From: Halorubrum salipaludis
GTDB lineage: Archaea > Halobacteriota > Halobacteria > Halobacteriales > Haloferacaceae
NCBI RefSeq assembly: GCF_002286985.1
Contig: NZ_NSKC01000004.1
Span: 1 to 64,000, forward strand
Direction of reading: 5' to 3'
Length of the DNA: 64,000 nt
This document shows positions 6,758 to 62,185 of the stretch, one piece after another. Both the position numbers and the translations under genes were made by a program. The notes beneath the pieces were generated by a model. That model ran no database searches and was not told where the DNA came from. It saw only the letters and a program-made list of their open reading frames with translations. Every line of letters begins with the position of its first letter. Position 1 is the first letter of the stretch.

Positions 6758-7260
<503 letters not shown>

Positions 7261-40246: not shown

Positions 40247-41044
40247 ATGAAGACGAGCGGCGGGAGCGACGCGATGAAGCGACGCGCCGGCGAGTCGGCG
40301 GCCGAGGCGGTGACCGACGGCGACGTGGTCGGACTGGGGACCGGGTCGACGGCGGCCCACGCGATCCGGCGGCTCGGGGACCGGATCGACTCGGGGCTCG
40401 ACGTCAGAGGCGTCGCCACCTCCTTCGCGAGCCGCGAACTCGCGACCGACTGCGGGATCCCCCTGCTCGACCTCGACGAGGCGGTGGGACCCGACGCGCC
40501 CGGGATCGACGTCGCGATCGATGGGGCGGATCAGGTCGCGGTCGGCGGGGAGGAGAGCGAGGGAACGGGGAGCGAGGGAACGGGGAGCGAGGGAACGGGG
40601 AGCGAGGGAACGGGGAGCGACGAACCGGCGGCCGGGGTCGGCCCCCTGATAAAGGGGGGCGGCGCCGCCCACGCCCGCGAGAAGCTGGTCGACGCCGCCG
40701 CTGACCGCTTCCTCGTCGTCGCCGACCCCTCGAAGGAGGTCCCGGTCCTCGACCGGTCCGTCCCGGTCGAGGTGCTCCCCGCCGGTCGCTCCGCGGTCGC
40801 CGAGGCGGTGCGGGCGGCCGGCGGCGAGCCGACCCTCCGGCGCGCGGAGCGGAAGGACGGGCCGGTCGTCACGGACAACGGGAACCTCGTGCTCGACTGC
40901 GCCTTCGGCGAGATCGGCGATCCGGCCGCGCTGGCGCGGACGCTGTCGGCGACGCCCGGGGTCGTCGAACACGGGATCTTCGTCGGGCTCGCGGACGAGG
41001 TCCACGTCGGGACCGAATCGGGCGTTCGGGTCGCCAAGCGCTGA
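40247..41044 (+). CDS. rpiA: ribose-5-phosphate isomerase A with an internal repeat insertion
   Basis: Interconverts ribose 5-phosphate and ribulose 5-phosphate. The 265-residue protein has the family motifs GLGTGSTAAHAI near residue 28, DVAIDGADQV near 88, LIKGGGAAHAREKLV and FVVADPSK-like FLVVADPSKEVPV. Between DGADQV and LIKGGG sits an insertion of about 35 residues, 20 of which are four perfect SEGTG units (residues 104-123). This loop normally is only a few residues long, and the insertion should project from the structure near, but outside, the active site. The catalytic acid and lysine regions are intact, so the enzyme is probably active. Confidence 0.93.
   Translation: MKTSGGSDAMKRRAGESAAEAVTDGDVVGLGTGSTAAHAIRRLGDRIDSGLDVRGVATSFASRELATDCGIPLLDLDEAVGPDAPGIDVAIDGADQVAVGGEESEGTGSEGTGSEGTGSEGTGSDEPAAGVGPLIKGGGAAHAREKLVDAAADRFLVVADPSKEVPVLDRSVPVEVLPAGRSAVAEAVRAAGGEPTLRRAERKDGPVVTDNGNLVLDCAFGEIGDPAALARTLSATPGVVEHGIFVGLADEVHVGTESGVRVAKR
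40556..40615 (+). repeat. 15-bp tandem repeat, four perfect copies, inside rpiA
   Basis: The unit AGCGAGGGAACGGGG occurs four times with no mismatch, encoding SEGTG each time, and is followed by a broken fifth copy (AGCGACGAACC). The unit is a multiple of three, so changes in copy number keep the frame. Perfect identity suggests recent expansion. Confidence 0.95.
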
Positions 41045-43823: not shown

Positions 43824-43894
43824 ACGGAGAGCGTCGCGCGGGGAGGGGGAAACGTTTTCGTCCGGACAGCGGCGGCGGACGTCGACACGAGACC

Positions 43895-44249
43895 ACTTAT
43901 AAATGACCTCGTGCGGAGGCGCGCGCCTCCGAGCGGCCGGTAGGCCGCGAGTAGCGAGGGACCTTCGGTCCCTCTGACAGCCGGCGGCGAAGCCGCCGGC
44001 GAGAGCGCCGCGCGAGGGACGCGGTGAGCGCTCGGAGAGCGCGAACCGCGAGGCTGGGGAGGTGTGAGGTGCGGGGTAGTGCGGTGCGGGTGGGACTCGA
44101 AGGGGCAGTCGCGAGGCGGGCGCAGGTGACGCAAGGACCGCAAGGAAGGGAGCGAGCAGCGCGAGCGACCGACGAGGACCGCAGCGAACGTGCGCCCGCC
44201 TCGCGACTGGGGCTTCGGGGCAGTTCGTGTCGGTCAGTAGTTTATAAGT
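43895..44249 (-). repeat. dispersed hairpin repeat, copy 2, with 9-bp terminal inverted repeats
   Basis: This fills most of the 486-base gap between hisG and a membrane gene. Ends are ACTTATAAA (43895-43903) and TTTATAAGT (44241-44249), exact inverted repeats. In minus orientation it carries GAAGCCCCAGTCGCGAG, a 19-bp inverted pair (44106-44124 with 44191-44209), CCTCCCCAGCCTCG, a compound hairpin (44020-44050) and GTCCCTCGCGCG. An array of four hairpins follows (43980-44000, 43956-43974, 43933-43948 and 43915-43930). No target duplication or transposase is seen. The rest of the gap (44250-44309) holds nothing recognisable. Confidence 0.8.
43897..43903 (-). promoter_or_regulatory. hisG TATA box formed by the repeat end
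   Basis: Read on the minus strand, TTTATAAGT at the edge of the repeat lies 74-80 bases before the hisG ATG. No other TATA-like sequence lies in between (that stretch is GC-rich apart from AAAACG). Expected leader about 50 bases. Confidence 0.45.
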
Positions 44250-44309
44250 CTCAACGTCTAGCCGAGCGGCTGAGACTTCGAGAGACCCCGAGTCCAACGG
44301 ATCGGCGGA

Positions 44310-61566: not shown

Positions 61567-61700
61567 ACACTCACGTAGGCCGTTGGCGCGTATATACCCC
61601 ACGACGGGACTGAGACTGATCCTGATCGACAGCGGGAGTGAGCCTCGTAAGATGGTGGAGGTGTTATTTATAAGTCGGATTGTGGTGGTGCTGGCGGGTG

Positions 61701-62048
61701 TTTATAAGCGATTGGCGATGTTGCGGTGAAGACCTGCAAAGCCCCAGCCGCGAGGGCGGCGCACGCTCGCTGCGCGCTTCGGTCGCTCGCGTTACTCGCT
61801 CCCTGCAGTGCTTACATCGTCATCAGAACGCGAAGCGTTCTGATTGGCTCACGAGAGCTCCGCTCTCGTGAACGCCTGCGCCCGCCTCGCGACTGCCCCT
61901 TTGAGTTCCGCCCCGCACAACACCGCAGCCTCACGCCTCCCCAGCCTCGTCGGCCGGCGCATATAAGCGCCGGCCGACTCCCTCGCGCGTGCTGCTCGGC
62001 CGCAGGGCGGCCTCGCAGGCACGCGCCACCGCAATTTTGTTTATAAGT
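61701..62048 (+). repeat. dispersed hairpin repeat, copy 3
   Basis: This fills most of the 619-base gap before the surface-protein gene. Ends are TTTATAAGC (61701) and TTTATAAGT (62040-62048); another TTTATAAGT lies outside it at 61667. Blocks in order: GCAAAGCCCCAGCCGCGAG, TCGGTCGCTCGCG...CTCGCTCCCT, a 10-bp-arm hairpin with GAA loop (61822-61844) and a 9-bp-arm hairpin (61849-61871). Next come CTGCGCCCGCCTCGCGACTG, CCTCCCCAGCCTCG, an 11-bp-arm hairpin with an A/T loop (61950-61977), ACTCCCTCGCGCG, and GCGTGC...GCACGC. The remaining 137 bases are the promoter region of the next gene, with ACTTGTTTAAATAC near 62068. No gene seen. Confidence 0.8.
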
Positions 62049-62185
62049 AGTGCTGCGCCGTCACTCACACTTGTTTAAATACTCTATCACCACCGCCGAT
62101 CTGCGAGACCCACTCCCACTATCGTCCGTCACCGTCTCCCCGTCACACCGACAAACTACTTATCGGGTCGGCCGTAATCGCACCT

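Follow-up and report, generated by a model that had tools for sequence, protein, structure and literature searches.

A hairpin cluster of Halorubrum salipaludis as the probable 5' part of a transposase-free haloarchaeal element encoding a predicted two-domain structured RNA

In this analysis we follow up a cluster of hairpins in a 64,000-nucleotide (nt) stretch of the genome of the haloarchaeon Halorubrum salipaludis (contig NZ_NSKC01000004.1, positions 1 to 64,000; this whole stretch is called the window), which an earlier note on the same DNA had taken for an array of four palindromic units gained as modules, in the manner of repetitive extragenic palindromic (REP) sequences and bacterial interspersed mosaic elements (BIME). 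With a probability that we put at roughly 60%, the cluster makes up the 5' part of an interspersed haloarchaeal element, short and without a transposase, that encodes a predicted structured RNA of two domains. Within this element the four hairpins are the 5' strand of a long-range stem (P1), a variable hairpin (H1) and a single double-hairpin cassette. Sequence comparison gives good support for a structured RNA element found throughout the class; selection of its fold as RNA, on the strand of the element, is likely, if not proven, and the element is likely to be mobile and non-autonomous.

The hairpin cluster and the element around it

The four adjoining inverted repeats were all recovered at the places given for them: a first palindrome of 18 bp (43914-43931), slightly longer than reported, followed by hairpins at 43933-43948 (6-bp arms, loop GGTA), 43956-43974 (8-bp arms, loop TTC) and 43980-44000 (9-bp arms, loop GAA). 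The hairpin reported for a reduced copy at 7209-7228 likewise exists, with 9-bp arms and a 2-nt loop. The whole window holds 40 hairpins (arms of at least 8, loops of 2-6), against an average of 18.35 (between 11 and 26) for its 20 dinucleotide-Markov copies, and three or more hairpins (arms of at least 7) within 86 bp occur in 0 of these 20 copies, where the maximum is 2. Hairpins of this kind are not, therefore, equally common in sequence of the same composition, which they exceed in both number and clustering. The cluster lies between two minus-strand genes, upstream of one that we take from its open reading frame (ORF) to be hisG (minus strand).

The interspersed element to which the cluster belongs occupies positions 43895-44249 together with one 63-nt 3' unit, and all of its strand-specific features are on the plus strand. 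It opens with a left AT box, ACTTATAAA (43895-43903), which is an inverted copy of 44241-44249. The predicted RNA element spans 43912-44218, where a covariance model of the 5' domain (R2) matches 43912-44062 (E 1.4e-6) and one of the 3' domain (R1) matches 44084-44218 (E 1.2e-18); the predicted fold has an energy of -186.3 kcal/mol (z = -6.6). Palindrome 1, itself without strand, holds the P1 5' strand GGCGCGCGCC (43918-43927), whose partner in the family is at 44005-44013. It is followed by H1 (43933-43948), variable in sequence and paired in nearly all copies; by the cassette (43956-44000, linker TGACA), absent from most copies; by the P1 3' strand with a GAGGGA box (44005-44019), as placed by the alignment and the consensus fold; by a second hairpin, H2 (44021-44049); and by the box GAGGCTGGGGAGG (44050-44062), nearly invariant in 58 copies. 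The 3' domain, P3 (44084-44218), is a long stem in which GC pairs form a ladder with GA steps and which includes an internal loop of GGG/GGG, and the 63-nt unit behind it (44219-44281) is a decayed repeat of the P3 3' strand that contains the right AT box (44241-44249). Boxes common to copies (GGCGCGYGCC, GAGGGA, GAGGYTGGGGAGG, GGGACTCRAAGGGGCAG and GGGGCTTYGG) alternate with stems that vary from copy to copy. Since GGCGCGYGCC pairs with a downstream GCRCGCGC to form P1, palindrome 1 is one strand of this stem, self-complementary here by chance, and its earlier reading as a hairpin unit does not carry over to the family.

Covariation, copy number and the probable exchange of hairpins

The evidence for a conserved fold comes from two alignments, A1 with 58 copies (from 69 diverse copies listed among 88 found) and A2 with 59 copies (from 70 listed among 94 diverse and 108 found). 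Excluded were the long copies and the majority of those with the other type of P3, so that A2 leans to one P3 type, with several of the other remaining; one copy (L086) is misaligned internally in A2, and copies from related species are not independent. The consensus folds contain 16 pairs (A1) and 35 pairs (A2), 51 in total, in which 98.8% and 96.9% of cells, respectively, are paired, compared with 20-56% when partners are slid. Changes on both sides were found in 12 of the 16 and 23 of the 35 pairs (35 in all), and no covariation measure was reached by any of 500 shuffles; compensatory changes exceed chance, the mark of a structured RNA family. Non-Watson-Crick cells on the strand of the element are mostly G.T as opposed to A.C (66 vs 5 in A1, 51 vs 19 in A2), as they are among 88 distinct H1 hairpins (19 vs 7). 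Taken together, mismatches that are mostly G.U on one strand and strong covariation suggest that the fold is probably selected as RNA. The tally for H2, in which 62 of 129 hairpins have six outer pairs of Watson-Crick type (with counts of 7 for G.T, 10 for A.C and 61 for other), mixes hairpin types of different registers, lends no support to the strand reading and was counted neither way.

An improbable alternative is that template switching during DNA synthesis keeps the palindromes perfect without any function, the fold being a by-product. Correction of imperfect palindromes by template switching is known, and hairpins at one site do differ wholesale between copies while remaining perfect; this process, however, would account neither for conservation across genera and for the unpaired boxes that are conserved, nor for the stems P1 and P3, which pair over a long range, and for G.T cells outnumbering A.C cells.

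The structured element is both abundant and widespread. A search of the genome of origin with positions 43880-44260 gave at least 49 matches (40 of 319 candidates scored), and an exact 23-base core pattern was found in at least 115 stretches, with Halorubrum species, a Halobacteriales metagenome-assembled genome and an uncultured archaeon as titles among the matches listed. The R1 model, whose E-values are rough, gave at least 134 matches in the genome of origin, a lower bound since 150 of 6919 candidates were scored; seven are opposite-strand duplicates, leaving about 127, which for a repeat of 350-570 bp would come to an estimated 1-2% of the genome. R1 matches lie at contig extremities (C26:1-129, C27:229671-229799, C23:1-113 and C27:1-113), and the repeat therefore probably breaks the assembly. 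R1 matched 140 of the 194 genomes sampled from the class, covering 52 of 65 genera, and 17 of 148 genomes in a sample of the phylum, all of them in the order of H. salipaludis. In ten genomes outside Halorubrum, all 30 loci carry GYGGGAMTGRAAGGGG with up to 2 mismatches and, with up to 1, a 3' strand resembling GGGGCTTYC, both sides of the stem changing together, as GAAAG/CTTTC in 24 and GGAAG/CTTCC in 6; R2 matches directly upstream in several of the non-Halorubrum loci. Spread by viruses was considered and rejected: an exact 17-base core pattern had 0 matches in viral contigs, and phages gave no match. Plasmids gave 2 weak matches with a Halorubrum copy as query; a query copy from another genus matched 35 records, of which all those listed are haloarchaeal, and a further copy matched 3. 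On three plasmids (L266, Haloarcula marismortui pNG500; L268, Halobacterium sp. DL1; L270, Halorientalis marina) an R1-like element precedes, by about 460 bp, a gene with the annotation DNA-binding or SOSS subunit B protein, and in one other genus (L198, L209 and L219) elements occur as close inverted pairs. Most haloarchaeal genera sampled carry the family, yet Rfam 15 contains no family that matches it, the single chance match being far below the gathering score. Likewise, no description of the family or its sequence was found in the open-licence literature, and the available passages of the Haloferax volcanii genome paper name no such RNA (PMC2841640). If the RNA is made, few structured RNA families would be more numerous in these archaea.

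The hairpins differ in sequence between copies. Among the 88 distinct H1 hairpins there are 28 different 7-nt arms; the 15 readable H1 hairpins at the hisG site have 15 different sequences, all still paired; and in 49 copies read from the genome of origin, 6 of the 36 H2 alleles are accompanied by more than one H1 allele. From the diversity of H1 at one site and the pairing of single H2 alleles with several H1 alleles, we infer an exchange between copies by way of the conserved boxes. A further source of variation is the double hairpin, of which 42 of 199 distinct copies carry at least one (63 in total). The commonest cassette reads CAGC, a hairpin, TGGCA, a GCCGG hairpin and GAC, or its complement in the other orientation (18 forward, 24 reverse, 19 of other types); on our reading the element has five main places for it, each with a constant orientation. 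The pair at 43956-44000 is such a cassette, which supports the modular gain that the earlier note had proposed. Another cassette type occupies the same place of P3 in the second copy of the window and in L205, from a non-Halorubrum genome. With these cassettes, nature supplies a set of domain swaps in which the role of the fold could be tested.

These observations bear on the original comparison with REP and BIME palindromes moved by a REP-associated Y1 transposase, which we now regard as highly improbable. The resemblance is real insofar as tight pairs of strong, short-loop hairpins recur in many intergenic copies, and the genome encodes one Y1 transposase. However, 1,354,689 bases made up of the window, 400 kb sampled from the genome of origin and Halorubrum loci contain 43 double hairpins of the tight kind (arms of 7 or more, loop of 3, gap of 3-7), of which 42 lie within 200 bp of an element box and the remaining one at 467 bp; three Markov replicates of that material without the window gave 0 each. 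The units are not found alone, a possibility that the earlier note had put forward for testing, and sit inside one 350-bp element, where their stems form part of a larger covarying fold; the constant GTAG/CGTC tag at the hairpin foot is missing (the flanks being CAGC, TAGC, CAGG, CCGC, GGTC and GGTT); and the sole Y1 gene, on contig C3, is an IS200/IS605 TnpA next to TnpB, with no element match in its locus.

A distinct regularity concerns the 3' end of the element, where many copies carry tandem repeats of the P3 3' strand and a spacer (for example window positions 44219-44281 and loci L026, L011 and L049). The unit length is a multiple of 3 nt in 135 of 139 units and for the first unit in 86 of 88 arrays, across nine different lengths, while two sets of lengths inside the element have no such preference (remainders 0/1/2 of 51/55/53 and 31/53/52). 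With Tandem Repeats Finder, multiples of three were obtained in all 19 element arrays, in 76 of 86 coding repeats and in 25 of 60 other intergenic repeats; two arrays in other genera, of 51 and 57 nt, fit the same rule. A coding origin of the arrays was considered and rejected, there being no codon-phase entropy signal and the best frame being open in only 98 of 135 units. The triplet spacing of these non-coding arrays is a clean regularity.

Ends, genomic setting and probable mobility

The core is bounded by inverted TTATAA boxes in most copies, and its terminal inverted repeats are of the type seen in miniature inverted-repeat transposable elements (MITE): 9-bp AT boxes in the window copy and a 17-bp frame motif in a minority. 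Among 136 copies, 113 lose similarity just beyond the left AT box, which is the outer limit of their conservation, and the other 23 sit within a longer frame whose inverted ends carry GATCGATARCGGGAGTG, a motif with 59 sites in the genome of origin and 0 for its reversed control. The length of framed copies is 443-573 bp; shorter derivatives (139-362 bp) have lost parts of the RNA. Two derivatives without P3 (L271 and L273) are joined at two GGCTGGGG stretches, as expected for a deletion between short direct repeats. The window itself offers three further copies, all on the minus strand: a second, longer one (61624-62125) with the inverted-repeat frame, both domains and another double hairpin (61822-61871) in P3; a reduced one (1410-1625) that retains the 5' domain, with P3 mostly deleted (R2, E 7.6e-13); and a strongly reduced one (7170-7246) consisting of the P1 5' strand, half a cassette (7209-7228), GGGGCTTTG and the start of a 3' unit. 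Filled and empty forms were found at one site, where the element is present in 3 genomes, replaced by a gap of 36-54 bp in 5 related genomes and by 148 bp without the element in 1.

With respect to genes, gaps between convergent genes are preferred (53 of 113 elements vs 41 of 280 other gaps), and in same-direction gaps 20 elements are sense and 23 antisense, without a sense bias; this count leaves out 38 copies without clear flanking genes. A scan based on boxes alone included some false ones inside genes. The setting is relevant to a second explanation, that the RNA is a regulatory or structural RNA of the host, or a 3' untranslated region element, kept for its action on neighbours or the cell and moved only incidentally. 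We consider this unlikely, though it carries more weight than template switching, as class-wide conservation, RNA-like covariation, the preference for convergent gaps and an old copy at hisG all agree with it. Against it stand the even sense and antisense counts, by which the element has no constant relation to the gene before it, together with the occurrence of both filled and empty sites and of many deletion forms; convergent gaps are also those in which insertions do the least harm. In locus L160, upstream of hisG, another and AT-richer sequence, which may be an insertion sequence, interrupts the element within H2.

Known mobility enzymes were examined in the genome of origin. Retro-copying of the type seen in short interspersed elements (SINE) and a reading of the RNA as an IS110 bridge RNA were both rejected, as reverse transcriptase (PF00078) and the IS110 transposase (PF02371) gave 0 matches there and positive results in control genomes. 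In the same genome, inverted pairs of the frame motif (up to 2 mismatches) include none that spans a gene-sized stretch, as the ends of an autonomous transposon would. The genome encodes three TnpB and one TnpA, and none of these loci contains an R1 match. This bears on a further alternative, to which we assign a very slight chance, namely that the element is a remnant or satellite of IS200/IS605 (a PATE) and its RNA an omega RNA without TnpB. Haloquadratum is described as having many transposase-free repeats, the PATEs, whose palindromes are related to IS605 ends (PMC3119063), but the present element has inverted ends, which PATEs do not, it has no match in Rfam, and it is absent from the TnpA and TnpB loci of the genome of origin.

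Several observations weigh against a mobile element that encodes a structured RNA. The longer frame is a minority feature, present in only the 23 copies mentioned; the gap sequence at the polymorphic site is too diverged for exact ends to be read from it; framed copies have no target duplication visible by eye; and no enzyme or transposase moving the element was found in the genome of origin. The box was found in 16 of the 30 hisG loci examined (52 genomes hit), so the copy there is old and widespread, not freshly moved. The left AT box was also rejected as a promoter, as it precedes GGCGCG by 19-20 nt, which is too near for the TATA box of an RNA starting there. Finally, A2 pairs with any G.T cell (13) and with any A.C cell (14) are even in number, and the strand evidence consequently rests on cells, which are not independent.

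On balance we favour the mobile, RNA-encoding element, for which the following scenario may be proposed. An enzyme acting in trans would copy the element at the DNA level, and its RNA would be transcribed and bound by a protein, in which case selection would keep the fold and not the letters of the hairpins. Recombination between copies through the conserved boxes could exchange hairpins, and discrete double-hairpin cassettes could be gained or lost at helix junctions. We regard the RNA as a putative protein-bound RNA that serves the spread of the element itself. More tentatively, and with low expectation, these features may be united in a class-wide mobile element that works through an RNA of about 250 nt and two domains, perhaps with a G-rich GGG/GGG core suited to multi-molar potassium, bound by a haloarchaeal protein that moves the DNA, with hairpins as exchangeable cassettes and 3' ends duplicated in a 3-nt register. 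If this joint reading of RNA and element is true, the strict register would point to a triplet-wise copying or strand-pairing step, and not to translation.

Elsewhere in the window, an ORF at 40247-41044 (plus strand), which presumably resembles ribose-5-phosphate isomerase, contains a tandem EGTGS repeat that is repeated also at the DNA level.

Comparison with known systems

Like the structured RNA families of Rfam, although matching none in release 15, the element combines covarying stems, conserved unpaired boxes and optional helices. In the accounts given of REP, BIME and REPIN sequences of bacteria (PMC2817692, PMC3116915, PMC3733652), strong short palindromes, often paired, recur in many intergenic copies as they do here, whereas the hairpins described above belong to a larger fold, are not free-standing and have neither a constant tag nor a matching Y1 gene. 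The nearest description is that of the transposase-free Haloquadratum repeats SMR, MITE and PATE (PMC3119063). As with the SMRs in that account, many non-coding copies seem to have inverted ends unrelated to a known transposon in the genome and no target duplication, and small elements are found inserted in larger ones; SMRs, compared here by description and not by sequence, measure about 80-110 bp as opposed to 350-570 bp for the present element, and the passages devoted to them describe no folded RNA. The cassettes find their closest likeness in the double or repetitive hairpin elements of mitochondria, each of which joins two hairpins by a short linker into a discrete cassette that a given place may have or lack (described in part in PMC2800124). 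Unlike these, the haloarchaeal cassettes are confined to one chromosomal RNA element of archaea and keep a single orientation at each of its places.
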